A DNA stretch of 62,021 nucleotides, taken from assembly GCA_022509205.1 (NCBI GenBank), contig JAFLTR010000007.1, positions 1-62,021 on the forward strand, read 5' to 3'. This DNA is from Muribaculaceae bacterium. Its GTDB lineage: Bacteria; Bacteroidota; Bacteroidia; Bacteroidales; Muribaculaceae. Below the pieces are notes generated by a model. It had not been told where the DNA came from. It was given only the letters and a program-made list of their open reading frames with translations, and made no database searches. How positions within the stretch are numbered: the first letter of the stretch is position 1; each line of letters begins with the position of its first letter. Made by a program: the position numbers and the translations under genes. Of this stretch, positions 9,701 to 39,026 are shown piece by piece.

Positions 9701-10606
9701 ATGCCGACAGAAGATCTGAATCATATATTTATCTCTCCATTTACCGATTACGGTTTTTATCATCTTTTCGGGAAAGAAGGAAAATCACGGCAGAATCTCA
9801 TATTCTTACTGAATGCGATACTGCATGATTATCTTGGCTTCGAGAAGATTGTAGATTTAAGTTTCGGACAGACAGAAAATAAGGGTACCAGTTCTGTTCA
9901 TAAATCCACACGCTATGATATACATTGCACCACCGATCAGGGTCATCATATAATTGTGGAGATGCAAAACAGGTGGGAACCGAACTTTGATAACCGGTTG
10001 CTCTATTACGTAATAGAGACCATCGCCAAGCAGGGCGTGCATAAATTCATGAAGCAGACGTGGAATTATGAGATAGTGCCGGTAGTAGGAATAGCCTTAT
10101 GTAATTTCACACGTGAGAAGTTCAAGAACCGCCCATTGACATATTATAATTTGCGGGAAATAGAGACCAACGAGCCTTACGGAGAACAAATCAATTTAGT
10201 GTATGTGAATATTAAAGAATTCACCGAAGATGAAGATAAATGTAAGACAGAGCTTGAAAAGATAATCTATAGCTTGAACAATATGGAAACCCTACAAAAG
10301 CAACAACATAATCCGTTTTCTACGGCTCCCGGTGATTTTTACGACAATTTGTTGACTATGAGTCAATACAGCTCATTGACTCCTGATGAACAGATGGAAT
10401 ATACCCGGGCCAGGATGTATGCCAACGATGAGATGCTTCGCATTCAACGAAGCAGAGCCGAAGGAAGAGCCGAGGGAAGAGCCGAGGGTGAGAGTCAACA
10501 GGCATGGCGCAGTGCAGAAAAGATGTTTGCAAAAAATCTCGATTTGGAAACCATCTCAGAGTTCACCGGTCTCCCTCTGGATGAATTGAAAAAACACTTC
10601 AGTTGA
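9701..10606 (+). CDS. Rpn family recombination-promoting nuclease / PD-(D/E)XK transposase-like
   Basis: 301 residues from the ATG at 9701. The longer frame from 9599 would begin inside the left repeat and run through the promoter, so I reject it. The N-terminal half is a PD-(D/E)XK nuclease of the Rpn/transposase_31-like family: ISPFTDYGFYHLFG, then D73 and the E87-M-Q89 triad, then NRLLYYV and a downstream VVGIAL strand. In this family E. coli RpnA is a DNA endonuclease that promotes RecA-independent recombination. The C-terminal part holds the typical RAEG repeats (three units, encoded by near-identical DNA and therefore slippage-prone) and ends in a small helical segment (LETISEFTGLPLDELKKHF). 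The gene has its own promoter and operator and is bracketed by hairpin direct repeats, so it looks like a self-contained mobile or selfish module. Confidence 0.85.
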   Translation: MPTEDLNHIFISPFTDYGFYHLFGKEGKSRQNLIFLLNAILHDYLGFEKIVDLSFGQTENKGTSSVHKSTRYDIHCTTDQGHHIIVEMQNRWEPNFDNRLLYYVIETIAKQGVHKFMKQTWNYEIVPVVGIALCNFTREKFKNRPLTYYNLREIETNEPYGEQINLVYVNIKEFTEDEDKCKTELEKIIYSLNNMETLQKQQHNPFSTAPGDFYDNLLTMSQYSSLTPDEQMEYTRARMYANDEMLRIQRSRAEGRAEGRAEGESQQAWRSAEKMFAKNLDLETISEFTGLPLDELKKHFS

Positions 10607-17673: not shown

Positions 17674-17691
17674 ATAGAATCAGAAGAATTA

Positions 17692-20340: not shown

Positions 20341-20342
20341 TC

Positions 20343-22907
20343 TCAATCAATAGTATAAGAGATTTTCCTACTATCCGGACTTTTTACTTCAAAGTCTACA
20401 TTCAGTTGATTCATCCGTAGGCCGGTTACTTTAAATCGGTAGAGGTGGTTTCGCATCACGGGGTAGATCTTTTTCAGATCATCGGAGCTCCCGGATTCCC
20501 ACTTACTGTCGTAACTATCTCTGTTGGTTGTGCCTCCTCCACCCCCCGGCGCGAAATATATACGATAAGAAGCATTGTCGTCGAGGTTGTCGTCAGTGCT
20601 ACGGTCGAATCTCATCTCGATACGTATTACCTTTGGCGATTCCGACATTGTAGCGTTGTTGTTAGGGTCGGTGACGTTCTTTTCCGGCACGTAAGCGTAA
20701 TAGTAATAGTAATCATCACCATTGGTGTCAATTCCCCCATCGGAAGTAACGCCTACAGTGCCCCCGTCGATCATGTGAGCGTAGTCGGAGCGATTTATAC
20801 GGGTATTGAAGATACGAGGATAAGGGCCGTCGCCGGTGATTTTTATAGTCCGGTTGGCCCAATCCCAGCCAAATTCCGTGTTCCATATCCCGAAAAGCCA
20901 AGCTATTTTGTTTTGATAGGCCTCTTTTTCAGCCGCTTCGCTTGAAAATGCTTCATTACTATAAGTAAATCCCTTCTCCTTGATATCTTTGATTTCTTTG
21001 TCTACTCCTAAGGCATCTTTATATTCATGGGTTAGGCTTACATCAGAGATGTTATCAGTTTTATAACTTGCACCTTTAACTTCTTCGGGATATTTCTCAT
21101 CTGCAGAATATCCGTTCCAAATTACATTTGTAGGGGTAAAGACATCCAAAGGCGCCGAACGGGAGAAACGGTTCAAGGTTCTTAGAAACATGTGTTGAGG
21201 TTCCGGGAAGATGGATTTAGGTAGAAGCACCTCAACTTTAGCCACAGACCGGAGCAGGTAGATAGTACGGAATGGATATTCGTTTAATTTTGCTTCGTCG
21301 CCTGTGCTGGTGGGAAGTTTTGAAGAGAGATCGAAAGCAGTGCCTTCCGGCCACACATCAGTGCCTACCGCTTTGAAATCTTGAATGCCATACATGGAAA
21401 TTCCACCCTCCGGAGTATTGGCGGGGTTGATCATCTGTTTATCTGCATTCTGGACCATCCTGGATTTCACATAGTCTATCTCATAAATAGCGATGTCGCC
21501 GTTTATGGCATAGATTGCAAAATCGGAGGGCGTGCCCGTCACACGAATTGTTTCTCCATGATCCTTTTTATAACTGAAAGTATAGGTGGCAAGTGTTTCA
21601 TTCACTTCATAACTAAAGAGTTTGATACTGCTGCCGGTGCTTCCAAAAGTACCTTTTCTGACTACAAGGGTAGGCTTTTCCCCGTCATTTTTGGGGATAG
21701 CCCGGCATGTTATATATAGATAACCATCGGCGGGAAGCTGAAAAGATAAATAGTTTCCGTCGTCGGTAGAAAATTTAACGGATTCACTCACACTTCTATC
21801 TGTTGCCCGAAGTACAACACATTTTTCATCTCCTTGGGGCGTGTATGGTTTTTTTGAATCGTCGGTGTTGTCTTTGGGATTGGTTCCAAGCTTAAGTCCT
21901 CTGACTGTAATATCTTCCTCTAAATAGTTGTCTTTTGTATTGTCATAATTGTCAGGGAAGAGTTTCTTTTTCCAATCGTTATTAAGGGTCGCCCAAGCGG
22001 TCTTTATATCGGAATTGTCGGTGGTGTAACATTTGTCTGTGTTTAAATTATCTTCGCCGCCGAAATTCCAAAGTTGCCATACATTGTAGTAGTCATAATC
22101 CTTCATATCGGTGAAAGTGATCTTGACTCGGGCTGCATTGCTCAATTGAGGTTTTGTGTTGCTGTGAAAAACAGCTTTATTTACGTCATAATTATTTCGG
22201 ATAGCATCTTCAGCTGCTTGGTCGCTGGGAAAACGAATAGCGAGCCAATCCTGGTACCACCCCATCTTGAATCCGGCCCCTGTAACGAAAAAGAGGGTTT
22301 CAGAATCGTCAGCCTCATCAGGATTAGATGAGCTTGTGTAAGATTCATCGGCCAAACAATGCGTGATATAAAAGATATTGTTATGGTAGATACCATTGGC
22401 ATCTTTAGTGAATTGTGTATTTGTTAAATCCGGAGTTTCGGGTGTATTTGTAAAATCGGGATAACCGGCCCAGTTAGCGAACACTGCGACCTTGAAATCA
22501 TTTTCCCGGATATAGTTTACCACATCTGAAGAGAGATCTTCGGTGGGAATTTTTACATAATATTTCTTTCTGTTTTCGAAATCCGGATCATTCTCATCAA
22601 TAAACTCAGTAATCTCCTGGTTTTTGAATTCCTTGAGGAATGTACCGTTAGCACGGAAAAAGACCACATTGAAGTTGTCGGGATTCACCACAATCTCCTC
22701 GTCAAAGTCGGAGAGGCGTGAAGTGTGGGAATCATCAAATCCGCCGGGTATATCGAGCGCTAAGTATAGGGCACCACCTTCGGCGCCACCGTCCAGACCT
22801 GCATTATGTTGCTCCATCGATAATTTATCATCGACGCATGAGAATAGGCCTAAAAGAGAGAAGAAGGCTATAAGAAAAGGATATATATGTCGCGAAAATA
22901 GATTCAT
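20343..22907 (-). CDS. Fimbrillin-like lipoprotein with inserted beta-sandwich
   Basis: 854 residues. Signal FLIAFFSLLGLFSCVDD with lipobox LFSC. An early LYLALDIPGG strand and a C-terminal YPVMRNHLYRFKVTGLRMN segment followed by VDFEVKSPD match the fimbrillin/Mfa-like scheme (compare VRNNWY in the flanking genes). Residues ~370-490 look like an inserted domain (GYLYITCRAIPKNDGEK, YKKDHGETIRVTG, GDIAIYEIDYV) similar in style to the C-terminal domain of the following protein. It sits between the first Mfa1-like gene (23 nt gap) and the 882-residue protein (2 nt gap). It is probably a large structural or adhesive component of the fimbria; the exact role is not known. Confidence 0.6.
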   Translation of the reverse strand: MNLFSRHIYPFLIAFFSLLGLFSCVDDKLSMEQHNAGLDGGAEGGALYLALDIPGGFDDSHTSRLSDFDEEIVVNPDNFNVVFFRANGTFLKEFKNQEITEFIDENDPDFENRKKYYVKIPTEDLSSDVVNYIRENDFKVAVFANWAGYPDFTNTPETPDLTNTQFTKDANGIYHNNIFYITHCLADESYTSSSNPDEADDSETLFFVTGAGFKMGWYQDWLAIRFPSDQAAEDAIRNNYDVNKAVFHSNTKPQLSNAARVKITFTDMKDYDYYNVWQLWNFGGEDNLNTDKCYTTDNSDIKTAWATLNNDWKKKLFPDNYDNTKDNYLEEDITVRGLKLGTNPKDNTDDSKKPYTPQGDEKCVVLRATDRSVSESVKFSTDDGNYLSFQLPADGYLYITCRAIPKNDGEKPTLVVRKGTFGSTGSSIKLFSYEVNETLATYTFSYKKDHGETIRVTGTPSDFAIYAINGDIAIYEIDYVKSRMVQNADKQMINPANTPEGGISMYGIQDFKAVGTDVWPEGTAFDLSSKLPTSTGDEAKLNEYPFRTIYLLRSVAKVEVLLPKSIFPEPQHMFLRTLNRFSRSAPLDVFTPTNVIWNGYSADEKYPEEVKGASYKTDNISDVSLTHEYKDALGVDKEIKDIKEKGFTYSNEAFSSEAAEKEAYQNKIAWLFGIWNTEFGWDWANRTIKITGDGPYPRIFNTRINRSDYAHMIDGGTVGVTSDGGIDTNGDDYYYYYAYVPEKNVTDPNNNATMSESPKVIRIEMRFDRSTDDNLDDNASYRIYFAPGGGGGTTNRDSYDSKWESGSSDDLKKIYPVMRNHLYRFKVTGLRMNQLNVDFEVKSPDSRKISYTID

Positions 22908-22930
22908 ATCAGAAATTAACCTCTTTTTAA

Positions 22931-25015
22931 TTAGATATCGACCTCTTCATAGACGATGTGCCAAGGAATTATCATCACTTCAAAACCGATATTGTTGGCC
23001 GGGGAGGGTTCATTGTTAGGTATTATAGGTTGGGAGAGATCATCTACCGGGGTGCCGGGATTTGCAACTCCATCTATCTGGAAATGATACCAGTTGTTTC
23101 TCACCATACCGTGGTCGGCGGTTCTTAAACCGAAGTTTCCTTCTTCAAGTCGACTTGTGTTATGCATTATCTGGAGGGCATAATACATGCAACCCTGATT
23201 ATAGTGTTTAGCGAAATAGTAAGTGTTGCCGTAGACAAATTTTTTGTATTTATCGTCGTTAATAATTTCATAAGTGTTCGCTCCGGTTTTCACATAGAGA
23301 GAGATTTCGCTTTTGGGATAAGGGAAGCACCATCCGTCTCCGCCGATAATTTCGGCCGGGACAATATCGAAATTATCAGCCGACGCTTCTACATATACGT
23401 TATCCTTTTTTACATAAAATTTCGGAATATCTTCGATCGGGGAGAATTGGGTTGCGGGAACGAAATCCTCGCTAAGGTCGGAGATACACTTGGTGTTATT
23501 CTTCATATTGTTGCCCATAGATATTCTGAAATAATCGATATAGGCTTCGCGAGTCCAATATTGGTTGTTGGTGAAGAATTTCTCTGAAACGTCTGATAAT
23601 AGGCCGGTCTCTTGATCTATCTCGGTAGTGTTGTTATCGATACGGTCAATTAGCAGTTGGGCACAAACAATAAGGTGGGAGCCACAGCGGAAGTGTGTGA
23701 GATCGCCAAGGGGGTCTGCAAGTCCGCTAAAAGTTTGTGTGGGGGAATAAGTGTTTTCACCTTGATACTCCCTGATGTTTCTTTTTGAAGGGTTAGAAAA
23801 GTAGAAGAAACTGTAATAGTTCAGGAGATGAGTGTCTTGATTTTCGTAATAAGACTTGAATTGGTCGCGATTAGAAGCAAAAATTTTGTCGTTTGCTTTC
23901 CGGTATTGACTGGGATAAGATCTATAGGATTTTGAGTAGTTGTTATCTACAGCCCAGTAATTCCCTATCACATTCGTGCCGCTATAAAGGTTCCACTCCT
24001 GGATAGTAGAGATCGAAGTGTCAAGATATTTGAAGAGATATTCTTGAGGCTCTGTGGCATTTATTCCCCAACCGACAATATTTGCTTTCCAAGTATATTC
24101 GGAAGCCTCGACATTATCATGACCATCCTCATCCTTACTGTTGTATTTAGTCACCAATTTGAGGGTATTGGTTTGGGAATCTGAGGGAGTGTATAATAAG
24201 GTATTGGAGGTGCCCGAGTCGAAAGTATTGTTTACGATGCCGTTGTTGAAATAATATTCTTTGTTGTTGTTTGCAAAGAGGATAGTGAATTTCGACTGTA
24301 GTCTTTCCACATAGAGAGTGACGGAGGGGTGTTCCAAAGCCTCGGATATAGTGTTATAGACTTTGAGGGAGCCGTTTTCCATCACTAAAGATGAAGTGGG
24401 GGATAGCCTTCGGTTTATCACAGCCATGGCTGTAGCCATTGTGTGGTATTTATATCCCTTCTTGTCAATGAAGAAGATCTCATTGGAGTCGATAAGGCTA
24501 ATATTCTGATTACCACTTTTGAGATTGGTCTGAAGGGATTCGCTTGCATTGAGAATGACCCTCATATTGTTGATTGAGGAGAGGAAAGGATCGGTGAGTG
24601 GCACTTTGCAGACTCCTTTATAAGCCGTGGTCTTATTACTGCCGGTTTGAGAGTATTCTTGCAGATATTCGAGTTGAAGACGGGAGATTATATTCTGGTT
24701 GTTGTCGTAAGCTAAAACCCAATGGGCATCAGGATTGTTGGCTACGGCTTTTTCCTGATCGAGACCTTCATTAAAGAAATAAAGACCGGATTCAGTATTA
24801 TCTACCGGACTATCGAAGACAGATCGGGTGGTAGCCTCGTCATCAGCTAAATTTATTATCAAAGATATATAGCCGTAGCTCTCGGCTTCATCGGGGATGT
24901 CGGGGGTTGAAAGATTGTCTTCGGAACAAGACGGAAGGATGAAAAATAGAAACCACATCATCCAAAGTCCCGCCGAATATATAATTTTATATTTCTTTGA
25001 GTTTTTCAAATCCAC
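22931..25015 (-). CDS. Mfa1-type fimbrillin lipoprotein (first gene of fimbrial operon)
   Basis: 694 residues from a GTG at 25015. This start gives a Lys-rich n-region (KNSKKYKIIY) before the hydrophobic MMWFLFFILPSC lipobox; the only later ATGs (codons 19-20) would leave no basic residues. The C-terminal region carries the Mfa1 signature HGMVRNNWYHFQIDGV and a final FEVMIIPWHIVYEEVDI strand. With the distal gene it forms a pair of Mfa1-like subunits that bracket two larger lipoproteins. A consensus promoter lies 121 nt upstream and a 17-bp palindrome lies 13 nt upstream in the leader. Confidence 0.74.
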   Translation of the reverse strand: MDLKNSKKYKIIYSAGLWMMWFLFFILPSCSEDNLSTPDIPDEAESYGYISLIINLADDEATTRSVFDSPVDNTESGLYFFNEGLDQEKAVANNPDAHWVLAYDNNQNIISRLQLEYLQEYSQTGSNKTTAYKGVCKVPLTDPFLSSINNMRVILNASESLQTNLKSGNQNISLIDSNEIFFIDKKGYKYHTMATAMAVINRRLSPTSSLVMENGSLKVYNTISEALEHPSVTLYVERLQSKFTILFANNNKEYYFNNGIVNNTFDSGTSNTLLYTPSDSQTNTLKLVTKYNSKDEDGHDNVEASEYTWKANIVGWGINATEPQEYLFKYLDTSISTIQEWNLYSGTNVIGNYWAVDNNYSKSYRSYPSQYRKANDKIFASNRDQFKSYYENQDTHLLNYYSFFYFSNPSKRNIREYQGENTYSPTQTFSGLADPLGDLTHFRCGSHLIVCAQLLIDRIDNNTTEIDQETGLLSDVSEKFFTNNQYWTREAYIDYFRISMGNNMKNNTKCISDLSEDFVPATQFSPIEDIPKFYVKKDNVYVEASADNFDIVPAEIIGGDGWCFPYPKSEISLYVKTGANTYEIINDDKYKKFVYGNTYYFAKHYNQGCMYYALQIMHNTSRLEEGNFGLRTADHGMVRNNWYHFQIDGVANPGTPVDDLSQPIIPNNEPSPANNIGFEVMIIPWHIVYEEVDI

Positions 25016-25519: not shown

Positions 25520-25524
25520 GCAGG

Positions 25525-25596
25525 TATCTCCATACGGAGTCGAACCGTAATCGTCGGAACCGGAATCCGATATTCTATCCATTGAACTATGGAGAC
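25525..25596 (-). tRNA. tRNA-Arg (anticodon CCG)
   Basis: 72 nt. Acceptor GTCTCCA pairs with TGGAGAT (one G-U), D-stem GTTC/GAAT, anticodon stem TCGGA/TCCGA with loop TTCCGGT giving anticodon CCG, T-stem TACGG/CCGTA with loop TTCGACT, discriminator A. The CCA end is not encoded. It is enclosed by a terminator on each side. Confidence 0.92.
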
Positions 25597-25739: not shown

Positions 25740-26876
25740 TTATTTATTCCAGTCGGAGAAAGAATAAGTGGCCTCTATCTCATTTTCGATGTCATCGGGT
25801 AGGGCATAGAAGAGGTCGTAGCCTAAAAGTTTTTCAAGATCATCCACGCTCATAGCATAATCCTGGAGATTACCCGGGTTTGAGCCATTTTGCATAACGA
25901 ATGCTATGGCACGCGGTTTGGCAGCGGGATTGCTTTCATCATAATAAAGGAAAGCCTTGAAACAGGCGCTCGGCACCCTTGCCTTGGCAGCTCCTACATA
26001 AAGATTGTCGGAGTCGTAGTACACTGGACCTGAAACAATCCAGATAGCTCCGTCACGTTTCGCCCAATCTCTCTCCTTGTTTTCAAGAGTTGCCCACAAA
26101 CCGCTGTTGAGAGAGCTCAACTGAGGCACCATATTAGTCATCACTGCAGCATCCTTCATAGCAGTGGAGCTCCATTTCTGGTCGGCAGCCGGACACATGT
26201 GGCCTCTCTCATATTTGTAGGTGGAATATGCGTAATCTGTACTTAAACAACCTTCCACTTCTTTATCCACCCAATAGTCGCGGCTTGTAGATGTGCTTCC
26301 GTTGGTTTCCGATTTCAGAAGTTCCCAGCAAACATAGTTAGGTGTATGGTTGTTTTTGTTGAAATTTACGGTGAACCCAGTGTATTCCTTCACTTGTTGG
26401 GGAGTTCCTTCCGGAAGGACCACATAGGAAAGAGGGTATTTGTAGTTTGATGGCACGGCATCAGGACTGTCGGCAGGTGTCTCGCCCGGTTTTTCCTCGT
26501 CTCCGGTGTTGTCACCATTGTTATCACCATTGTTGTCGCCGTTATTATCTTCTCCCGGTTTCTCTTCGTCACCGGTGTTGTCATCTCCGGTGTTGTCGTC
26601 TCCGGGTTTTTCTTGGTCGCCGTTATTGTCATCACCAGGTTTCTCTTCATCACCGCTGTTATCGTCGCCGGGTTTCTCCTCGTCACCATTGTCGTCGCCG
26701 GGTTTTTCCTCATCTCCGTCAGTCGGGTCTTCAACGATAGTGGTGTCGTCATCATCCGGCCAGAACGGTTCTTCGGCATCCGTGTTACATGAATTTAAGG
26801 TCAGAAGGCTGCTTCCTAAGAAGAGAGCCATACATAGGAAAGAACCGATAAATTTCTTCTTGGTAAAGATAGTCAT
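25740..26876 (-). CDS. Surface DNA/RNA non-specific endonuclease lipoprotein
   Basis: 378 residues. The signal FLGSSLLTLNSCNTD has a lipobox-like LNSC, so the protein is likely membrane-anchored and possibly surface exposed. Residues ~38-135 are an acidic linker with six EKPG units set in GDD/N-rich repeats. The catalytic domain is of the Serratia nuclease (NUC1) type: YERGHMCPAADQ with the presumed general base His226 (Glu in place of the usual Asp of DRGH), TNMVPQ, and the metal-binding segment LNSGLWATLENKERDW. Later strands IWIVSGPVYY and CFKAFLYY fit the family. It cuts DNA and RNA without sequence preference. It is divergent from a TonB receptor and OB-fold lipoprotein, suggesting nucleic-acid foraging. 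It is followed by a strong terminator. Confidence 0.88.
   Translation of the reverse strand: MTIFTKKKFIGSFLCMALFLGSSLLTLNSCNTDAEEPFWPDDDDTTIVEDPTDGDEEKPGDDNGDEEKPGDDNSGDEEKPGDDNNGDQEKPGDDNTGDDNTGDEEKPGEDNNGDNNGDNNGDNTGDEEKPGETPADSPDAVPSNYKYPLSYVVLPEGTPQQVKEYTGFTVNFNKNNHTPNYVCWELLKSETNGSTSTSRDYWVDKEVEGCLSTDYAYSTYKYERGHMCPAADQKWSSTAMKDAAVMTNMVPQLSSLNSGLWATLENKERDWAKRDGAIWIVSGPVYYDSDNLYVGAAKARVPSACFKAFLYYDESNPAAKPRAIAFVMQNGSNPGNLQDYAMSVDDLEKLLGYDLFYALPDDIENEIEATYSFSDWNK
26475..26730 (-). repeat. Coding repeat: acidic EKPG-GDDN linker
   Basis: Degenerate tandem repeats coding for units such as GDEEKPGDDN and short GDNN units, inside the nuclease gene. Such arrays can change length by slippage and so vary the tether between anchor and enzyme. 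Confidence 0.75.
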
Positions 26877-27089
26877 ATAGATTTAAGTTAGATTAGATTT
26901 AAGTTAGAAGGGCATTTAGATAGTTAACGCAAAATTAAGGAAAAAATTTGAAAAAATCGGAAGATTGCTTATTTTCCCTTATTTTTGTTTATATGCCCTG
27001 TCATGAAGAATTGACAGAAAAAGGGTACAAAAAATTCCATTAAATTTTGGCACTTATAATGTTAGATAGATATGTCCCGGAGGAAAGAA

Positions 27090-27115
27090 ATTATAAACAT
27101 TATAAACATTTATAC
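27090..27115 (+). repeat. 9-nt ATTATAAAC repeats
   Basis: ATTATAAAC twice in perfect tandem (27090-27098 and 27099-27107), followed by a degenerate ATTTATAC. It lies about 200 nt upstream of the TonB receptor promoter and could be a protein-binding array. Confidence 0.4.
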
Positions 27116-27315
27116 AATAACCCGGATCTATTAATTTTGGAGTACTTCATTTGGACGAGAAAAAAAATCTCTTGGGCAAGTTATATATCATATCTTTATT
27201 TTTTCGTCCGGTTCATAGGGTAATTTTTTAGAAGAATTAGAGAGGTAGGAATCGAAGAGGAAGGAATTCTGATTTTAACAGAAATTAAATTCCTTTTGTT
27301 AAAATGAAGGATTAC

Positions 27316-27346
27316 TTTGCGGGAATGTAAAAAAGGTTTAACTTTG
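27316..27346 (+). promoter_or_regulatory. Promoter of the TonB receptor operon
   Basis: TTTG (27316-27319), 19 nt, TAACTTTG (27339-27346), an exact Bacteroidetes-type match. The start near 27353 gives a leader of about 128 nt with hairpins GGCAG-CATC-CTGCC and AATTTCGGA/TCCGAATT. Confidence 0.75.
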
Positions 27347-27480
27347 CAAAAGCATAGAAGTATCTTGGAAAACACGAAATGAGGGGCAGCATCCTGCCTT
27401 ACAATCTACAAATTTCGGAATCAAATCCGAATTACAAGGTCTAAAACAACATAAACATATTTTCAACTAAAACCCTTATT

Positions 27481-30255
27481 ATGAAGAGATTGTTTCTCGT
27501 AGCCCTGGTGCTCATAGGAATGGTTGGCTTCGCATTTGCGCAACCAAAAACCATGACTTGCCGGGGAACTGTTATTGACGAACAGGGAGAACCGGTAGTA
27601 GGCGCCACCGTACAGGCAACAGGTACTACCATCGCTATCCCTACAGACATCGACGGCAAATTCAGTCTGAAGGTGCCGGCTGACACAAAAAACATTCAGA
27701 TTAGCTATGTAGGTTACAAGACCAAGATCTTGAGGGCTGAACCGGAGATGGGAGAAATCCGTCTTGAGCCGGATTCCAAAATGCTTCAAGACGTAGTTGT
27801 GACTTCATCAATCGCAAAGACCCGTGAGACACCTGTGGCCATTTCTGAGATCACGGCCCAGGAGATAGAAGTGAAGCTTGGCGACAAGGAATTGCCTGAA
27901 CTTCTTAACACCACTCCGGGCGTTTGGGCCACTCCGGAAGGTGGCGGCCATGGTGACGCTAAAATCAACATGCGTGGTTTCAAGGCTCCGAACGTAGCTG
28001 TGCTTATCAACGGTATCCCGATGAACGATATGGAGTGGGGTGGTATCTACTGGTCCAACTTCGGTCACCTGCCCAACGTGACATCCAATGTGCAGACACA
28101 GCGCGGACTCGGTGCTGCCATTATCTCCACACCGTCAATCGGTGGTACGATCGCTTATACCACCAAAGGTCTTGACGCCAAGAAAGGTGGATCATTGTGG
28201 TATGGCACAGGCAACGACGGTCTGAACAATATCGGTATGACTCTTTCCACCGGCCTTATGAAAAACGGCTGGGCCATCACATTGATGGGCGGTCGCCGCT
28301 GGGCAAACGGTTATATCCAGGGAACACAATATGATGAATGGAGCTGGTTTGTGAACGTCACCAAGAAAATCGGCGACAAGAACCAGATAGCCCTTACGGC
28401 TTTCGGTGCTCCGCAATGGCACAACCAGCGTTCAAGCGCTTCCCTTATGATCAATGAGTGGCAGAATGTAGCCAACTTCATGGGGACTGAATCACCTTAC
28501 CGCTACAACCCGATCTTCGGTTATGACAATGAGGGACAACAGCGTACATCGGCCCGCAACCAGTTCCATAAACCGATTATCTCACTCAACCACATCTGGC
28601 AGATCAACGCCTATTCATCCCTTTCTACCGCACTTTACGTTTCATTGGCAAACGGTTACGGATATTCAGGCCAGGGTCGTCCGATCGACATTTCAAGCCC
28701 GAGCGGCACAAACTGGCGTACAGGATGGTATGGCACCGACGGCTACGGTAATCTCAACTGGGAATACCAGGGTATCTCAACCCGTCGCCCAGACGGAACA
28801 TTCGACTACGGTTCTATCCAGGATATGAATGCCGCAAGCGCCACGGGTTCAAATATGGTGATGGCTTCATCCAACAACGACCACCAATGGTATGGACTTA
28901 TCTCCACTTATAAGAACGAGATACTTCCTAACCGTCTTTCAATAACAGCCGGTATCGACATGCGTTATTATATCGGCCACCACTACAATAAGATCATCGA
29001 CCTCTACAGCGGCGAATACTTTATCGACGACTCAAGCCGCGGCGGTTCAAGCATGATGGCACAGAACAATTCGATGGCCGGTAACCAGCAATGGATCTAC
29101 CAGAAATTGGGCGTAGGCGATATAGTCTACAGAAACTATTACGGTTATGCCAACCAGGAAGGTATCTACGGCCAGGCTGAGGGAAAATATCTCGAAGGCC
29201 GCATCACAACTGTGATTGCCGGTTCGCTTAACGTAACGACCTATCAGAGAAAAGACCTCTTCTATTATGACGCCGACAAGGCTTGGTCGGCCAAGAAGAG
29301 CTATCTTGGCGGAACAATCAAGGGTGGTATCAACTGGAATATCGACCGCCACAACAATATATTCGCCAACGGAGGATACATCTCCAAGGCTCCGTTCTTC
29401 TCCAACGGTGTGTTCGTTTCTTCCGACGTGAGCAACGCCATCAACCCCAAATCATTCAACGAGAAGATTGGTTCGGCAGAAATCGGCTACAGCTTCCACT
29501 CTCCGAAGTTTACCATGACCCTCAACGGTTACTACACCGTATGGATGGACCAGACCAACCGCAACACCCAGCGTTCAGTCTACATCAACCGAGGTCCGAA
29601 TGCCGGCGAACGTTACACTGTAAACCTTGAAAACGTACAGGCCAACCACATGGGTGTGGAAATGAACTTTACATATATCCCGACCAACTGGTTTGAGCTC
29701 AACGGAATGATATCCTGGGGTGACTGGAAATGGGGCAACAACGTGCTCGGCTATTTCTACAACAGCCAGGGTGCGCCGCTTGCCGACCTCGAAGGTAACG
29801 TGGCCCCGGAAATGTTTGGCAAAGACCATATATGGGTAAGGGTTAAACAGAAAGGAGTACACATCGGCGGTTCTGCACAGACCACAGGTATGCTCGGCGT
29901 AACTTTCCGTCCGTTCAAGGGCTTCCGCATCGGCGCCGACTGGTTGCTCAATGCCCGCAACTATTCGGATTATTCACTAACAAGTTCGGCACTCAGCAGC
30001 AGCGTCAACAGCACTATCACAGTTGAAGAACCATGGGAGATCCCGTTTGGCAACGAGCTTAATTTCAACGTAAGCTATAACTTCAAGATCGGAGGAATCT
30101 ATGCCACAGTATATGGCAATGTCAACAATGTGCTCAACAACAACTACATCAAAGACGCCAACACAAATTATTATGAAAAGGGAGACTGGACCAACGCATG
30201 GGGTTATTACTCATTCGGAAGGACTTTCTCAGTTCGTCTTAAACTCAGTTTCTAA
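27481..30255 (+). CDS. TonB-dependent outer membrane receptor
   Basis: 924 residues with a clear signal peptide (MVGFAFAQP). The first ~85 mature residues are a carboxypeptidase-regulatory-like domain (GTVIDEQGEPVVGATVQATG, DGKFSLKVP, ISYVGYKT). The plug follows (VVVTSSIAKTRETPVAIS, LPELLNTTPGVWATPEGG, INMRGFKAPNVAVLINGIPM). The rest is a 22-strand barrel ending in FSVRLKLSF. It is shorter than typical SusC proteins, and no SusD is next to it; instead a multi-OB-fold lipoprotein follows after 31 nt. It should import a bound ligand with energy from TonB. The ligand is not evident from sequence; the divergent nuclease gene suggests nucleic-acid fragments as one hypothesis. Confidence 0.88.
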   Translation: MKRLFLVALVLIGMVGFAFAQPKTMTCRGTVIDEQGEPVVGATVQATGTTIAIPTDIDGKFSLKVPADTKNIQISYVGYKTKILRAEPEMGEIRLEPDSKMLQDVVVTSSIAKTRETPVAISEITAQEIEVKLGDKELPELLNTTPGVWATPEGGGHGDAKINMRGFKAPNVAVLINGIPMNDMEWGGIYWSNFGHLPNVTSNVQTQRGLGAAIISTPSIGGTIAYTTKGLDAKKGGSLWYGTGNDGLNNIGMTLSTGLMKNGWAITLMGGRRWANGYIQGTQYDEWSWFVNVTKKIGDKNQIALTAFGAPQWHNQRSSASLMINEWQNVANFMGTESPYRYNPIFGYDNEGQQRTSARNQFHKPIISLNHIWQINAYSSLSTALYVSLANGYGYSGQGRPIDISSPSGTNWRTGWYGTDGYGNLNWEYQGISTRRPDGTFDYGSIQDMNAASATGSNMVMASSNNDHQWYGLISTYKNEILPNRLSITAGIDMRYYIGHHYNKIIDLYSGEYFIDDSSRGGSSMMAQNNSMAGNQQWIYQKLGVGDIVYRNYYGYANQEGIYGQAEGKYLEGRITTVIAGSLNVTTYQRKDLFYYDADKAWSAKKSYLGGTIKGGINWNIDRHNNIFANGGYISKAPFFSNGVFVSSDVSNAINPKSFNEKIGSAEIGYSFHSPKFTMTLNGYYTVWMDQTNRNTQRSVYINRGPNAGERYTVNLENVQANHMGVEMNFTYIPTNWFELNGMISWGDWKWGNNVLGYFYNSQGAPLADLEGNVAPEMFGKDHIWVRVKQKGVHIGGSAQTTGMLGVTFRPFKGFRIGADWLLNARNYSDYSLTSSALSSSVNSTITVEEPWEIPFGNELNFNVSYNFKIGGIYATVYGNVNNVLNNNYIKDANTNYYEKGDWTNAWGYYSFGRTFSVRLKLSF

Positions 30256-30286
30256 CCTTTCCTGATAAAAATAAAAGAATCAAGAT

Positions 30287-33091
30287 ATGAAAATTAGATA
30301 TATAAAATCGTTGGCATTCGTGGGAGTTGCGCTACTTGCAGCGAGCTGTACCGACAATTCCTGGAACAACACCTTCCTGGATGGATTCGAGGGAGAACCC
30401 ACTTATGACAACTCGGTGACAGTGAGCTATACACTGAGCACCACCGACTATGAAACCATCGGCAAGACCCTCTACGATATGGCTGTGACCGATGAGGAGA
30501 AGGCGGCAGCAAACGGCATCCGCAACAACCATTATTTCGATCAGAACAGTGTGTATCCCGCACAGGTTGCTGTGCCCTATTTCCTGAACCAGAACCAGAC
30601 AGATTTCTATATCTATAATGATGGTTCAACAGTGGAGGTGAATCTGCAGCAGGCCGAGACTCCGGCAGAGATTACAGCAGTCAACGCCGCACCCCGTATG
30701 GTGATGGCCACAGCCCCTGCAGCCGGCACAATACCGAGCACTCTTCTGAATGCTTATCCGGAAGCAGAGGCAGGTGATCTGGCAATAGTTTCCTACCCCG
30801 GAGCTGCAACACAGTCTGTGGCTCCTCAGGCAGTAGCGATGGCTAAAAAGGCGGCAACAAGAGCCGGAGTTGATTTGACCTCCAACATCAAGAATCTTTC
30901 CGAAGGTGCGGCCCTTACTGCTACTGCAGTCGTTACCGCTCAATGCGGAAGAGGACTTATCCTGACCGACAATGCAGGTTCGATATTCTATTACAACAAC
31001 AATGTTGACCTTGCCACTTATCCTATCGGTACGATAGTGAATGTGTCGGGTTCAGTTGCAGTATATGGTGGTTTCCAGTTGACAAATACGGCCACTCTCT
31101 CAGTAGTTGGTTCTGAAACTTACACTTATCCGACCCCGACCACTTACACCGCATCCATGATTAGCGCCGCTATTACAGCCAATGCTGCCAACACAGCACA
31201 GTATGTAAGTTTTGAGGGCACGCTCAATATTAATGGAAACTATTATAACATCGACATTCCGGGCGTGGAAAATGGTCAGGGAAGTCTTTACACACCTACC
31301 GATGAACTTAAAGCATTGCTTGAAACCGGTAAAACTTACACTTTCACAGGTTACTTCACCGGCATCACCAGCGGAAAATATTTCTATATGGTATTGACAT
31401 CCGTTAATGGTAACTCAGGCAACACGGGTGGTGGAAACACCGGCGGAAGTACCGGAGGTGACAATACAGGCGGAAGTACCGGTGGACAGACCTATTGGTC
31501 GGTGCCTTACGCTCTGGCACAGATGGAAGGTGGTTATGAGGGCGATGCAATAGTAGCCGGATATATCACCGAAATCAGTGAGATATCTACCTCTTACGGT
31601 AATGCAACTTATTTCATTGGTGAAACTCCTACAGCCACTGAAACTCTTGAAGTCTACAGAGGTTATGGTCTGAACGGAGAAAAATTCACAAGCGAGAACG
31701 ATATAAAGGTAGGAGACCTTGTATTGGTATCCGGAAAACTTGTAAACTACAACGGTACTCTGGAATTCACCACCGGCAGCCAGATTCTCAGTATCAATGA
31801 TGAGAATGTATCGGCAGGCGGTTCAACAGGTGGAGGAGCTTCCGGCGACTATTGGTCGGTAGCCTATGCTCTGGCTCAGATGGCCGGTGGCTTTGAGGGT
31901 GAAGCAATCGTAGAAGGTTACATCACTTCAATCGATGATATGTCGACTTCCTACGGAAACGCTACCTACCATATCGGCGACACAGCAAATGCCACTGAGA
32001 CTCTTGAGGTCTACAGAGGTTATGGTCTGAACGGAGAAAAATTCGTCACAGGCGATGAAATCAAGGTGGGCGACAAAGTAGTGGTGTCAGGAAAACTTGT
32101 CAACTACAACGGCACCTATGAATTCACTACCGGAAGCAAGATTTTGAGCATCAATGGCTCGGGCACTCCGAGTGCTCCCACATTGAATGAAGCCACAGCC
32201 ATCAATGAAGTGTATATGTTCAATGGCACAGAATGGGCTTTAGCAGAAGATATCGTAGCTATGGACGGTGTGGATTATACAGCTCTGGGTCTCACAGCCA
32301 ACAAACTTACCGATCCGGCTGTGTATCTCCCCATCTATTTGAAAAACACATATCCCTACGCCTCAGCCGGCACAGAGATGTATGTGGCCTATAATGTAGG
32401 TAATGTGTCGAGCAGTTGCGCCCTTATGGAATATGACGGTGCCAACTGGAGTTATGTCGACAACTTTATCCAGGATAAGGTGGCAGCCTTCACCAAGTCC
32501 GGTGGTTCTTACTCTTTCAGGAAGTATATCGGTGAGGAAGTATTCACTATCTATGAGGGTGATAAAATAGCTCTCAACTGCAGCTATCTTATCGTGTATG
32601 GCGGTGTATGTATGGAACCTGTTCCGACCGGAAAGACCTATGGTTATCCGGGAGAAACACCGGTGACAATCACTGACGGCTCGATCGTGATGCCAAACGG
32701 TGACAATGCCTTTACGTTCACCACAACCACCGAATATAACGGCAATACCTACACCACACCGGAAGGATATTTCCTCATCCAGGATTCCAACGGTAGATAT
32801 ATGTATCTGCAGGGCACCTATTCAAGCTTCAATGTAAGAAGCAACAATGCTTACATCGAGAGCGACGGATCTATCTCAGTGGGTTATCTCTTCAAGGCTA
32901 CCAAAGAGGAAGACGGCACATGGAGAATCGTCAATGAACAGGACATCACCCGTACACTCTATTACTCGGATGGAAATGCTGACTTCGCAGCCTACACCAC
33001 CGAACAGCTTGACAGATATGTGGGACGTCTGCCTTACCTCTATATCTCGGAGACCAGTACTCCGGTGGCTGATGACACAACGGGAGAATAA
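30287..33091 (+). CDS. Surface lipoprotein with tandem OB-fold-like domains
   Basis: 934 residues; signal FVGVALLAASCTDN with lipobox AASC. After an N-terminal region it has OB-fold-like modules: one or two divergent ones at about residues 200-375 (GTIVNVSGSVAVYGGFQL, TYTFTGYFTGITSGKYF), a Gly/Thr/Asn linker, then two near-identical modules (31493-31799 and 31850-32156) with YWSV-YALAQM, GYIT, SYGNATY and VSGKLVNYNGT, of the DUF6359 / OB-fold kind. The C-terminal part has a segment starting YFLIQDSNGRYMYLQG that is frequent in Bacteroidales secreted nuclease-associated proteins. It sits where a SusD would be, just after a TonB receptor, so it probably presents ligand to the receptor. OB folds often bind nucleic acids or oligosaccharides. 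Confidence 0.7.
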   Translation: MKIRYIKSLAFVGVALLAASCTDNSWNNTFLDGFEGEPTYDNSVTVSYTLSTTDYETIGKTLYDMAVTDEEKAAANGIRNNHYFDQNSVYPAQVAVPYFLNQNQTDFYIYNDGSTVEVNLQQAETPAEITAVNAAPRMVMATAPAAGTIPSTLLNAYPEAEAGDLAIVSYPGAATQSVAPQAVAMAKKAATRAGVDLTSNIKNLSEGAALTATAVVTAQCGRGLILTDNAGSIFYYNNNVDLATYPIGTIVNVSGSVAVYGGFQLTNTATLSVVGSETYTYPTPTTYTASMISAAITANAANTAQYVSFEGTLNINGNYYNIDIPGVENGQGSLYTPTDELKALLETGKTYTFTGYFTGITSGKYFYMVLTSVNGNSGNTGGGNTGGSTGGDNTGGSTGGQTYWSVPYALAQMEGGYEGDAIVAGYITEISEISTSYGNATYFIGETPTATETLEVYRGYGLNGEKFTSENDIKVGDLVLVSGKLVNYNGTLEFTTGSQILSINDENVSAGGSTGGGASGDYWSVAYALAQMAGGFEGEAIVEGYITSIDDMSTSYGNATYHIGDTANATETLEVYRGYGLNGEKFVTGDEIKVGDKVVVSGKLVNYNGTYEFTTGSKILSINGSGTPSAPTLNEATAINEVYMFNGTEWALAEDIVAMDGVDYTALGLTANKLTDPAVYLPIYLKNTYPYASAGTEMYVAYNVGNVSSSCALMEYDGANWSYVDNFIQDKVAAFTKSGGSYSFRKYIGEEVFTIYEGDKIALNCSYLIVYGGVCMEPVPTGKTYGYPGETPVTITDGSIVMPNGDNAFTFTTTTEYNGNTYTTPEGYFLIQDSNGRYMYLQGTYSSFNVRSNNAYIESDGSISVGYLFKATKEEDGTWRIVNEQDITRTLYYSDGNADFAAYTTEQLDRYVGRLPYLYISETSTPVADDTTGE
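31493..32156 (+). repeat. Coding duplication: two OB-fold-like units
   Basis: Units at 31493-31799 and 31850-32156 repeat with a 357-bp period. A ~45-nt stretch in each (ending in the codons for GLNGEKF) differs at a single base, which points to a recent duplication or gene conversion. Confidence 0.8.
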
Positions 33092-33127
33092 TCAATTGCA
33101 GATTGATAACTCTATTTGTTAATGAAA

Positions 33128-33156
33128 AGGGCGTCGGACAACGACGCTCTTTTTTT
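33128..33156 (+). terminator. Intrinsic terminator of the TonB receptor operon
   Basis: AGGGCGTCG (33128-33136), loop GACAA, CGACGCTCT (33142-33150), 9 bp with one G-U, followed by TTTTTT. Confidence 0.88.
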
Positions 33157-34637: not shown

Positions 34638-37307
34638 ATGAATGTCAAAAAAACGGTTTTCCTCTGTGCCCTCCCTATGCTTTTTTGGAGCTGCATAGAT
34701 GAATCCCCCTTTACAGTGTCAGATACGGGTAAAGGAAAGATTTCACTGAATATCACTGCTTGTTCCGAAATATCCGGTGAAATGCCCAATGTCAGGAGCA
34801 TCAGTGAAGAGATAGTGGCTCCTGACGCTTCCTTGTTTCAGATCAGACTCTCATCAGCCGACGGGAGTTATGTGAAAACATGGAGTTCCCTTGCCGAATT
34901 TGAAAAAGAGGAAAGCTTCTCTATCGGCACTTATGACCTCGAAGCCTTTTACGGATCTCCGAGTTCACAAGGTATTGTAGCTGAGGGGGAAGAGGGTCAT
35001 GAGCATGCATACTACTATGCCATAAACGAGGAAGTAAAGATAGAATCCGATAAAACCACTCCGGTGGCCCTCGAAGCAAAACTGGCTAACTCGGTAGTGA
35101 TAATTGAATACACTGATGCTTTCAAGAGATATTTCAAAAGTTGGGAAACCACACTGAAGACCGACGGGGCCGCTCAGGTGGCTTTGGAAGATAAAGAATG
35201 TCTCGCTTATATAAAATCCGGCAATGTCAATCTCACAATAAAAGCGGAGTTGCAAAATGGCAATGTGGTCAGAATGACTCCCGCATCTTTCCAGGCAGAA
35301 CCGCAACATCTCTATAAAATCAAATACAACATCAACAACGGTGAAATCGGTGAGGTGGATAAACTTGAGATTATTTTCAACGATGACTTAGAAAATGAAG
35401 ACAATATCGAGATTGACCTAACCGAAGAACTTTTTACCGGTGGAGTGCCCATCGTAATGCTCGAAGGACTCGAAGACCTTGAGGGGGATGTATTGGAGAT
35501 GCTTGAGGGTTATCCGTTTGAGGAGACAGTGAAGTTTATAATCAATGCCTACGAAGGGATAAAGACGGTAAAATTAAGGATCGTCACCACAGACGGGACA
35601 CTGCCTTCATTCATGCCAAATGGAGAGCTTGATTTGATGAGTCTTGATGAGGCAGGGCAGGCTGAGCTTTCAAATCATGGTATTCGTTGTCTTGGACTCT
35701 TCAATAATCCGGATAAACTTGCTTTGATAGATATCACCGAAGTGTGCCGGCAATTGCCTGTTGGAAGCTATGATATCAGCCTCACGGTTGGAGATAAATA
35801 TGGACGAGAGGGGGAACCTACTTCTTTCAAACAAGTGACTTGTCCCGTGGATTTAGATCTTTCCTTAATGACCAATGAGCAGGGGGAGACCGGGATAGTG
35901 GAATTAGGTGAAAGGGAAGCGGATGTGATTGTGTCGTATAATGGTCCCGCTCCATCTATCGATGGACCCATAGGCTTCAAAGTAGCCGGTAACCTTATGA
36001 TGGAGAATGTAAGGATTCTTTCAATCGAAGAAATGCCAAACACCCGGGGATTCGATGCCAAGAACTACAAGATGAGAATAAGTCTGCCTGACGCCGACAG
36101 AGACGATTTCCCTGTGGAGATAACTTATAACGGCGTGCCGGTCACCGACTTAGAAAAGAATCCGTTGCAAGTCACAATCAAAGTGAAATATCCTGACTAT
36201 GAGATGGAATATGACGCTATGTCCACCCGTATCTTGATGCGTCTGAATGAAGACTCATTCAAAAATGCCGATATAATAAAGAAGGTGCAAAAAGGTTTGC
36301 GAATTTATGTGGATGGCGAGGAAGTTTCTCGCAGCAGAATAAAATTTGAAAATGATATATGGACGATTGACGGTCTTGATGGCAGCGAACATACTCTTCA
36401 AACCGCAATCGGCTTCAATGAAATTCCGGCAAAATACAGCGAAGAGACACTTCTTGAAATGGAGGAACAACAAAAGGTGCCTAATATTAATTTTCAGGAG
36501 GTAGATAATGATAAGGCCATCAATATTTCATCTATCAAGTCCGGTGGCTCTTTTACAGTTAGTTTTGGTCTTATCACTCAGACCCATGAATTCAAGAGTA
36601 GCATTAGTAGAAATGTCCCGAAGTATTGGGCTACAATAAATGACTACACATGTTTTGAAAATTCCAACAACAGAAATACCTGGTTTCTGGTCCCTTCAAC
36701 TTATGTTGAGGATGGAGTTGTGACCATAGAATCAGTGGGCTATCATCATAACGGACCGGAACCAACTGATCCAAAAGATGACACTCTATATTGTCCAAAT
36801 AAACCATCGGAATTATTATCAAAATCCGGAGAACTTTTCTTGGGTGAATATTCCTATACCGGAGGTTATCTGGATGCACACGAGGAAAGAAGCGATGGTA
36901 TCGATTTTACCTCTCGGCCTGTAGCCTTAAAATTCACTTACAACTATTCCTCTTATCAAGGCGAGACAGGATTTGCCGAAGTAGAAGTTTTAGATGAAAA
37001 CGATAACATTCTCAGTCAAGCGGAACTATATTTGTCGGAGACTCAGAATCAAAATCAGGAAATAGAGCTTAGATTAGAAAACTATGATTTTGGAGTTAAG
37101 GCTGCAAAACTTAAGCTGTTATTTAAATCTACGTCAGGTGAACAGAATCCGGCAATAAATATTCCGCAGGGAGCATCTTTAAGTCAAGGTATTACAAGTA
37201 GAACCCAATTGGCTTCGTCTAGTAATAAAACAATTGCCGCCAACCAATATAAAGCAGTGGCAAAAGGTTCGGTTTTAAAAATTTCAAATCTCAGTATTGA
37301 ATATTAA
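34638..37307 (+). CDS. DUF4493 lipoprotein (large)
   Basis: 889 residues. Lipoprotein signal FLCALPMLFWSCIDESPF with lipobox FWSC. Residues ~30-250 are the DUF4493 domain (GKGKISLNITA, FSIGTYDLEAFYGSP, LEAKLANSVVIIEYTDAF, EPQHLYKIKYNIN), a beta-sandwich found in Bacteroidales lipoproteins of unknown function. The middle holds Ig-like repeats (VKLRIVTTDGTLP, VGSYDISLTVGDKYG), and the last ~250 residues form another beta-rich region (FDFGV-type strands and LKISNLSIEY). Its stop overlaps the next start in TAATG. It is the first of six same-strand genes for surface or outer-membrane proteins. The function is unknown. Confidence 0.72.
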   Translation: MNVKKTVFLCALPMLFWSCIDESPFTVSDTGKGKISLNITACSEISGEMPNVRSISEEIVAPDASLFQIRLSSADGSYVKTWSSLAEFEKEESFSIGTYDLEAFYGSPSSQGIVAEGEEGHEHAYYYAINEEVKIESDKTTPVALEAKLANSVVIIEYTDAFKRYFKSWETTLKTDGAAQVALEDKECLAYIKSGNVNLTIKAELQNGNVVRMTPASFQAEPQHLYKIKYNINNGEIGEVDKLEIIFNDDLENEDNIEIDLTEELFTGGVPIVMLEGLEDLEGDVLEMLEGYPFEETVKFIINAYEGIKTVKLRIVTTDGTLPSFMPNGELDLMSLDEAGQAELSNHGIRCLGLFNNPDKLALIDITEVCRQLPVGSYDISLTVGDKYGREGEPTSFKQVTCPVDLDLSLMTNEQGETGIVELGEREADVIVSYNGPAPSIDGPIGFKVAGNLMMENVRILSIEEMPNTRGFDAKNYKMRISLPDADRDDFPVEITYNGVPVTDLEKNPLQVTIKVKYPDYEMEYDAMSTRILMRLNEDSFKNADIIKKVQKGLRIYVDGEEVSRSRIKFENDIWTIDGLDGSEHTLQTAIGFNEIPAKYSEETLLEMEEQQKVPNINFQEVDNDKAINISSIKSGGSFTVSFGLITQTHEFKSSISRNVPKYWATINDYTCFENSNNRNTWFLVPSTYVEDGVVTIESVGYHHNGPEPTDPKDDTLYCPNKPSELLSKSGELFLGEYSYTGGYLDAHEERSDGIDFTSRPVALKFTYNYSSYQGETGFAEVEVLDENDNILSQAELYLSETQNQNQEIELRLENYDFGVKAAKLKLLFKSTSGEQNPAINIPQGASLSQGITSRTQLASSSNKTIAANQYKAVAKGSVLKISNLSIEY

Positions 37308-38971
37308 TGATTATGAAAGCAATAAAATATATAATCGGGAGTTTGCTGTTTGTTTCTTTGCTTACAGGATGTAAGAGCGAAGAAGATTTCAGTGGAGGTG
37401 TAACAGAAGAGGGTGAAGGCCAGATACTTGCCTCGTCAATCGCTCTCGACATTATTTCCGAAGCATTAAGCACCCGCAGTGTCGGAACTCCGACGGCTGA
37501 TGATTTCACAATTGAGATATGCAGGAGCAGTAATGAAAATATAGCCGCAGTGAAGATGCTCTATAGCCAACTTCCGGAAGTGCTGACTCTTCCGGTGGGA
37601 AGTTATACCGTGAAGGCTTATTTCGGTGACCCGGATATTACAGCTGCTTTCGATGCCCCGTACTTCTATGGAGAGGTGAAGGATGTGAATGTGCAGGCAA
37701 ATAAAATTGTGGATGTAGATCCTATAGAGTGTAAACCTGCGAATGTCAAGGTCTCGATAATCTTCGATGAAACTTTGCGGAAGGAGATGAGCGAAGACTC
37801 AAAGGTAGTGGTGAAAGTGGGAGAAAGCGGAGAACTTACGTTTACCGTCACCACAGAATCAGCCGGATATTTCAAATATGTAGAAAACAGCAACACCCTT
37901 GCAGCTAATTTTATCGGAGAGGTGCAAGGAGAAGATTTCAATGTAATCAAGACTTATAGTGACGTTCAACCGGGTTATTATTATCAGATAACATTCAAAC
38001 TAAATGTGATGGACCCGGGGATGGAGGAAGATCCCAATCAGGGAGAACAGCCGGGCGATCCCAACGGAGGTCAGGGGGATGATACCCGCGATCCTCAGGA
38101 GCCGGAAAATCCCTCAACTCCTGATGATCCTCAAGGTCCGGGCAATAGTGGCGATAGCAATGATCCGGGTGCAGATAACCCGTCGCAACCCGAGAATCCG
38201 GGAAGTGATGACAACCCTTCCAATTCAGGGAGTCTGAAGATTGACGCCACAGTGATTTATACAGTTAATACAGAGGGGGGAGAGGAGAGCCTTGATCCCG
38301 ATTTTCAGGAATATTTGAAGGATGGCAACAGCTGGGATTTCTCCGGCGATCATCCTTTCGACGACGATGACGTGACTGATGAACCCAATGTGGAAGACAA
38401 AGTTCCGGAAGTGAAACCGGATCCCAGCGACCCCGACGATGGAAACGAAGGCAACGGGGGTAACGGACAGGGTGGCAACACTAAGCCGGATGAGCCATCC
38501 GATCCTACACCGGAACAACCGGTAATGACTCCGCCACAAGTGGTATCCGACGACGTGGATCTTAACACGGTAACCAATATAACAGGCTGGCCCGACGGCA
38601 AAAGACTGGAAATAAAGATACTTTCAAAATCGAAGATTAAGAAATTTATCTGCAATATCGAGTCAGAACAGCTCAACAAGGAGACATTGGAGGGAATTGG
38701 TCTTTCGGATGAACTTGATCTTGTGAACGAAAATGACTTATGGCCGACACTGAGGGGATTGGGTTTCCCGGTCGGATCAGATGTAACCGATCCCCAGGAA
38801 GTGGATGCTGACGGTAATTATGTGATACATTTCTCACTCACAAATGAAGTGGACGGATTTACATTTGTGTATCTTTTGAATGCTTTGGGAGCAGGAACCC
38901 ATAAATTCGTATTCCATTTAGAGAATGAGGCAGGAGAATCCACTGCAACTCTCGCCTTGGAATGTAAATAA
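37307..38971 (+). CDS. DUF4493 lipoprotein with Pro/Asp/Gly-rich linkers
   Basis: 554 residues; start ATG overlaps the preceding TAA by one base (a second ATG follows two codons later). Signal IIGSLLFVSLLTGCKSEED, lipobox LTGC. The DUF4493 domain spans ~30-235 (LPVGSYTVKAYFGDP, CKPANVKVSIIFDETLRKEM, GYYYQITFKLNV). It is followed by a disordered linker rich in Pro, Asp, Gly and Asn (about 38020-38240), a short beta segment, a second Gly/Asn-rich linker, and a C-terminal domain (NITGWPDGKRLEIKIL, LGAGTHKFVFHLEN) that resembles the Ig-like part of the upstream protein. The two look like a paralogous pair with different tails. Confidence 0.7.
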   Translation: MIMKAIKYIIGSLLFVSLLTGCKSEEDFSGGVTEEGEGQILASSIALDIISEALSTRSVGTPTADDFTIEICRSSNENIAAVKMLYSQLPEVLTLPVGSYTVKAYFGDPDITAAFDAPYFYGEVKDVNVQANKIVDVDPIECKPANVKVSIIFDETLRKEMSEDSKVVVKVGESGELTFTVTTESAGYFKYVENSNTLAANFIGEVQGEDFNVIKTYSDVQPGYYYQITFKLNVMDPGMEEDPNQGEQPGDPNGGQGDDTRDPQEPENPSTPDDPQGPGNSGDSNDPGADNPSQPENPGSDDNPSNSGSLKIDATVIYTVNTEGGEESLDPDFQEYLKDGNSWDFSGDHPFDDDDVTDEPNVEDKVPEVKPDPSDPDDGNEGNGGNGQGGNTKPDEPSDPTPEQPVMTPPQVVSDDVDLNTVTNITGWPDGKRLEIKILSKSKIKKFICNIESEQLNKETLEGIGLSDELDLVNENDLWPTLRGLGFPVGSDVTDPQEVDADGNYVIHFSLTNEVDGFTFVYLLNALGAGTHKFVFHLENEAGESTATLALECK

Positions 38972-39026
38972 TTAGAAGATGTAATCTGCTGCTTTCTCTT
39001 CTATGGGAAGCTGAAAATCTGAAATA

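Follow-up and report, generated by a model that had tools for sequence, protein, structure and literature searches.

How nucleic acid crosses the outer membrane of Bacteroidota is, to our knowledge, an open question, and the gut is rich in DNA and RNA from mucosal and microbial debris. The question is raised here by a locus in a 62,021-nt stretch of a Muribaculaceae genome (the window, by which we mean that whole stretch; the genome is 2.3 Mb in 104 contigs and 88% complete), which an initial annotation had read as a possible nucleic-acid scavenging locus. Its three genes lie as placed there: a nuclease gene on the minus strand (25740..26876) and, on the plus strand, a receptor gene (27481..30255) and the gene of a modular surface lipoprotein (30287..33091), which starts 31 bp past the receptor. 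The 604-nt divergent gap between nuclease and receptor (26877..27480) had been described as rich in regulatory-looking elements; we find only ordinary AT-rich sequence there, including candidate Bacteroides-type -7 boxes at 27339 on the plus strand (142 nt ahead of the receptor) and at 26937 on the minus strand (61 nt ahead of the nuclease), marked with what we take to be the motif of such boxes. Elsewhere in the window, a run of large minus-strand proteins at 15823-25015 resembles a fimbrial operon, with Fimbrillin_C domains in two of them (15823-17673 and 22931-25015) and a tRNA-Arg (25523-25596) adjoining it; 34638-41327 codes for a tandem array of three DUF4493 proteins, of which the third also has a PCMD domain, and a PD-(D/E)XK nuclease-family transposase gene (PF12784) lies at 9599-10606.

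By Pfam, the receptor is an outer-membrane protein of the TonB-dependent-receptor type, with a carboxypeptidase-regulatory-like domain (27562-27801, plus strand; CarbopepD_reg_2; PF13715, PF13620) followed by a plug domain (27820-28149, plus strand; PF07715) and then the barrel. It scores 107.7 bits against the SusC/RagA model TIGR04056, whose cut-off is 368.25, with the best stretch at residues 26-183, and no second full-length relative of it was found within the window genome. Of the 99 genomes of the window's family, 57 have the receptor at an E-value of at most 1e-60, with full-length matches down to 48% identity. Of the other 56 loci of the family we fetched 50, leaving out 6 on short or partial contigs, and in all 50 a lipoprotein of the same kind stands directly 3' of the receptor at a spacing of 5 to 38 bp. 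A lipoprotein also adjoins the receptor in 79 of 80 loci from a genome collection (the best 80 of 580 relatives). The nearest relative found, the locus L091, has a receptor 81% identical to the window's. Order-wide, the receptor occurs at E 1e-100 in 67 of 295 genomes (40 loci were fetched as a sample of their own, and others came with the family and genus-Bacteroides samples), and the genus of B. clarus has it in 72 of 119; the type strains of B. clarus and B. rodentium (L150, L148) are examples of operon carriers. A 123-genome family that we had guessed to contain Bacteroides appears not to do so; the receptor matches 8 of its 123 genomes, none above 56% identity. The pair is less constant in the most distant set, where a lipoprotein-sized gene follows at +1 in 28 of 42 loci. 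Receptor and lipoprotein are a conserved unit.

Within this unit, mean column identity is 65% for the receptor (23 sequences aligned) and, far below that, 26% for the lipoprotein (22 sequences aligned). What is kept of the lipoprotein is an N-terminal core (residues 22-175; 30350..30811, on the plus strand like all its modules; drawn from alignments and a structure model) and an FxG..W core module (residues 633-745; 32183..32521), which the alignments place in most aligned partners. The middle and the C-terminus are swapped between relatives, which carry OB, choice-of-anchor-J/DUF5017 or trefoil modules there, with DUF5017 modules in several lipoproteins of window-type relatives. In the window's lipoprotein the model predicts OB-type modules 1-2 with confidence (residues 196-378; 30872..31420), a third at residues 404-505 (31496..31801; best PF01336 stretch at 423-494) and, less confidently, a fourth at residues 522-625 (31850..32161). 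The C-terminal domain (residues 757-925; 32555..33061) is a beta-trefoil by structural match, lectins making up many of the best matches, and shares 39% identity across 172 residues with a nuclease-fused module of L091. This trefoil took up the 50 listed structural matches of the lipoprotein model, and the OB modules are not among them. In a Pfam search up to E 1 the lipoprotein matches PF01336 (OB fold) alone, modestly (32.9 bits against a cut-off of 27, in two stretches), and neither SusD nor PF18942 (DUF5689); a PDB sequence search up to E 1 gave no match. The view that the receptor's partner is not SusD accords with this result and with a model composed mostly of beta modules.

The initial annotation had further taken the OB folds as a pointer to nucleic acid. 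That argument is weakened by the exchange of these modules: our own profiles, built on few seeds, find an OB module in at least 64 of the 91 lipoproteins from the window and the L041-L131 set, in at least 12 of 62 from the genus Bacteroides, in at least 9 of 50 from other loci and in 0 of 28 from the most distant set. With such variability, we reject the idea that the OB fold defines what the protein binds. Conservation does not lie with the OB folds, which alternate with choice-of-anchor-J and beta-trefoil modules, so the ligand is something that we infer. As a separate observation, the third genes of L149, L153, L155 and L162 encode mutually related exported proteins of 384-395 residues; that of L149 has an OB-fold match and could be an extra capture protein.

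Hydrolases of nucleic acid recur beside the pair across Bacteroidota. By Pfam, a fusion of Endonuclease_1, Exo_endo_phos and a secretion tail is the third gene in L249, L251 and L269, Endonuclease_1 lies directly 3' of the receptor in L285, L286 and L288 (L288 also with DUF5689), a type I phosphodiesterase/nucleotide pyrophosphatase (NPP) is the third gene in L253, L256, L257 and L281, and an S1/P1 nuclease stands directly 5' of the receptor in L155, L159 and L169, to which our own profile adds L245. In L072, L084 and L086, which belong to the L041-L131 set, the third gene upstream is Endonuclease I-like and lies on the opposite strand. Two other arrangements were seen: in L237 and L238 a nucleotide pyrophosphatase-like gene is divergent from the receptor, as the window's nuclease is, and a carboxypeptidase-reg-like outer-membrane protein of 1066-1126 residues (by eye) is the third gene in L195, L197, L200 and L207 and lies upstream in L168, these being Bacteroides and Lutibacter-labelled loci.

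To count neighbours without preselecting families, we tallied Pfam matches for 41 downstream genes from 93 loci. These are third genes that share the strand of the receptor, lie no more than 350 bp away and encode at least 120 residues, drawn from loci that belong neither to the L041-L131 set nor to the genus-Bacteroides sample. PF01223 (Endonuclease_NS) has 8, the OB fold 6 and NPP 4, and several families tie at 3, including Endonuclease_1 and the plainly housekeeping GCV_T. Among 45 upstream genes (7 of 52 were dropped as repeats of a single protein judged by eye to be ABC-F-like), kdotransferase has 7, secretion tails 5, S1/P1 nuclease and NLPC_P60 4 each and DUF5689 3. Four hydrolase profiles, applied to genes of at least 150 residues, match 63 of 811 genes at -1 and +1 to +3 versus 3 of 600 farther genes, with no overall enrichment at -3, -2, +4 and +5 (7 of 570 versus 3 of 600). 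The near-to-far excess appears in the genus Bacteroides (35/227 versus 0/42) and in other loci (26/301 versus 0/168); the L041-L131 set has none (1/279 versus 3/363), and the window's own family therefore contributes nothing to these statistics. Since the four families were picked after being noticed near the receptor, and some of the near genes seeded the profiles, the family-blind tallies carry more weight. A hydrolase neighbour stands at 64 of 251 loci, and in 22 of 100 clusters after thinning at 70% receptor identity, the count that we use because some collection loci duplicate genomes sampled otherwise; most receptor clusters are thus without one. On a 206-row receptor tree the hydrolase label requires at least 26 changes.

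These neighbours bear on the alternative that survives best, which we nevertheless regard as unlikely: that the pair imports some other nutrient (a glycan, peptide or cofactor) caught by OB, choice-of-anchor-J and lectin-like trefoil modules, the nucleases belonging to a general neighbourhood of surface hydrolases. The lectins among the trefoil's best matches would fit, as would a lipoprotein whose module exchange suits changing surface ligands and a family, the window's own, with no nuclease enrichment. Yet the leading neighbour families (the best 25 of 42 and of 53) include several nucleic-acid hydrolases and no carbohydrate-active enzyme, the receptor falls far below the SusC/RagA cut-off with a partner lacking any SusD match, and the trefoil is found fused to a nuclease as well as to the lipoprotein.

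Kinship of the receptor provides a second line of evidence. DUF5689 occurs in 137 of 355 genomes of the class, and in the best 30 loci it is preceded, without exception on its own strand, by a gene that in most cases encodes a receptor of the window's kind: our own barrel profile gives 26 of the 30 upstream partners at least 108 bits and 18 of 22 other TonB-type receptors at most 4. In a 122-row barrel tree (FastTree, with local support only and long branches flagged), which left out 3 of the 30 partners as too short, 26 of 27 DUF5689 partners fall into a single clade (support 100) that is sister to the window's receptors (97); the remaining one, L319, falls among the controls. The window's receptor clade also includes three rows taken as controls, and both clades are separated from almost every other control (95), the exception being a single one with a long branch. 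The window's receptor itself lies outside the DUF5689-partner clade, no DUF5689 match was found in the window genome, and in hhalign comparisons of window-type with DUF5689 lipoproteins only the signal peptide aligns, with no detectable homology beyond it. Judged from sequence, the window pair stands in a sister relation to the DUF5689-partner pairs, outside their group. Eight loci on the Flavobacteriales side vary, with a lipoprotein-like +1 gene in L291-L294, none in L296-L298 and an ambiguous case in L295; Endonuclease I follows the pair in L291 and L293 by our own profile, and in L293 also by Pfam.

The architecture of the sister clade is that of a pair which mutants link to natural transformation. 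In a Riemerella anatipestifer transposon screen, the adjacent genes RA0C_RS04915 and RA0C_RS04920 were both reported as essential for transformation, the former being an outer-membrane, carboxypeptidase-reg-like protein and the latter carrying choice-of-anchor J, DUF5689 and DUF5017 (PMC8459023). The same study reports that a mutant of RS09840, a SusC/RagA-type receptor, transforms about tenfold less, so receptor effects on transformation need not be direct (PMC8459023). In another Riemerella study, a tonBA mutant shows reduced transformation without a defect in iron uptake, and removal of phosphate lowers transformation (PMC8383284).

This last effect touches on an explanation that we hold to be improbable, namely that the pair is a phosphate-acquisition system whose goal is organic phosphate (nucleotides, phosphodiesters), as in the Flavobacterium PUS loci, with DNA as one source. 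NPP-type phosphodiesterases and S1/P1 nucleases do adjoin distant relatives of the pair, and a study of Flavobacterium johnsoniae describes induction of receptors, lipoproteins and extracellular nucleases at low phosphate (PMC8115612). A transformation that falls without phosphate is unlike a starvation response, though this effect concerns the sister-type system.

The nuclease of the window matches PF01223 at 143.9 bits against a cut-off of 23 (E 7.8e-42). It is lipid-anchored, with an acidic linker at about residues 31-140 between the leader and the catalytic domain (residues 150-361; 25794-26429, minus strand), and in an alignment to Serratia nuclease (1ql0) the His of RGH, the Asn and the Glu of that enzyme's site, whose roles we take to be catalytic, all align; the motif DRGH is ERGH in the window. 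By the initial annotation's own account, a nuclease not conserved together with the receptor pair would count against it, and in the window's family this is what was found, with a window-type nuclease adjoining the pair in 0 of 50 loci (up to 4 genes upstream and 5 downstream, as far as the stretches reach) and a PF01223-like gene farther off in 1 of 50. This rules out the nuclease as a fixed third member.

In other samples such a link does exist. Endonuclease_NS is the third gene in 9 of the 80 collection loci, all nine Pfam-confirmed, and, by our own profile, on the same strand in 34 of the 63 genus-Bacteroides loci whose third gene lies within the stretch (that of L208 in pieces); 66 of 72 loci had been fetched there, the six left out being that of the query itself, one interrupted by an internal stop and four truncated ones. 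Endonuclease_NS was not found beside the pair in the B. fragilis and B. graminisolvens loci that we fetched. In L091 the order is receptor, lipoprotein, nuclease, small gene, second nuclease, and in a tree of 24 nucleases, which took 10 of the 34 from the genus Bacteroides, the window's nuclease groups with both of these (support 95 and 99), which suggests that the linkage survived rearrangement in the window's lineage. Three copies that adjoin no receptor fall just outside this trio. Far from it, the 18 nucleases from Bacteroides-type loci make up a group of their own, so the two kinds of link appear to have recruited different nucleases. A chance placement, with a nuclease that has nothing to do with the pair and a pair of unknown function, has little probability: it would suit the 0/50 adjacency, the genome's other copy (60% identical over 241 residues, and lying before an mnmE-like gene named by eye) and a 604-nt divergent gap that excludes a shared transcript, but the closest kin of the nuclease, the two in L091, lie directly downstream of the same pair, a linkage that outlived rearrangement, and PF01223 genes are few, 2 in the window genome and 3 in that of L091.

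We therefore consider it probable that the pair acts as an importer that draws nucleic acid across the outer membrane with power from TonB, and that it is served by exchangeable nucleases and used in nutrition or transformation. We favor this reading because the pair is conserved, because several hydrolase families recur nearby, because a nuclease of L091 shares the lipoprotein's trefoil, and because sister-clade receptors pair with DUF5689 lipoproteins in the architecture of the published transformation pair. Weighing against it are the 0/50 nuclease adjacency, the variable OB module, the lectin-like trefoil matches, the lead of kdotransferase in the upstream tally (7 of 45, versus 4 for S1/P1 nuclease), the count of 22 in 100 clusters with a hydrolase and the lack of lipoprotein homology to DUF5689 proteins. 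In such an importer, the lipoprotein would sit over the barrel at the cell surface, where its exchangeable modules may catch the substrate (DNA, RNA or fragments) or attach the cell to surfaces. The polymer would be trimmed by a nuclease, either lipid-anchored or secreted and newly recruited in different lineages, a part that the divergent Endonuclease_NS lipoprotein may play in the window, and TonB would then open the plug to let fragments or a strand enter the periplasm. The purpose may be food, in the form of phosphate or nucleosides, or gene uptake.

The scavenging idea of the initial annotation thus gains from the hydrolases that recur near the receptor across Bacteroidota, from the grouping of the window's nuclease with the two of L091 and from the sister-clade kinship, and loses through the weak positional link within the window's own family; its support now comes mostly from evidence other than that first put forward. 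Among the matches listed in a search of open-access papers, none describes the pair as a nucleic-acid importer. More speculatively, and with a good deal less confidence than for the importer itself, Bacteroidota might take up DNA through a TonB-powered barrel and a modular surface lipoprotein in place of a secretin and pilus, the window and DUF5689 branches being devoted to nuclease-aided eating and to transformation, respectively, and one pair perhaps serving both where no DUF5689 is found. With a widespread receptor family, nuclease neighbours and a transformation-linked sister clade, the question is directly testable in genetically tractable Bacteroides. If the importer reading is true, the cut-capture-import logic of polysaccharide loci extends to DNA and RNA.

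The window's genes can be set beside several known systems. The nuclease shares its catalytic domain and aligned active-site residues with the Serratia nuclease/EXOG family (PF01223), and differs in being a lipoprotein, in its long acidic linker and in ERGH for DRGH. SusCD/RagAB importers likewise join a TonB-dependent receptor with an N-terminal carboxypeptidase-reg domain to a following surface lipoprotein gene and sometimes a hydrolase; the window pair differs in having no SusD match and a TIGR04056 score far below cut-off, and the recurrent neighbours of window-type pairs are nucleases, not glycosidases. The Flavobacterium PUS loci follow the same logic of receptor, surface lipoprotein and phosphodiesterase or nuclease; they use SusD-type PusD or polygalacturonase-like lipoproteins, unlike the window (PMC8115612). 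In the Riemerella pair RA0C_RS04915/RS04920, as in the window, a receptor-type barrel adjoins a modular partner. The window's receptor is, as expected of such a pair, a TonB-receptor-like outer-membrane protein with a carboxypeptidase-reg domain, and DUF5017 is common to RS04920 and some window-type lipoproteins. By its published domain description, RS04920 has the make-up of the partner in the sister-clade locus L327, which is exactly DUF5689 plus DUF5017 (PMC8459023), whereas the window's receptor belongs to the sister of that clade and is paired with a lipoprotein without DUF5689.
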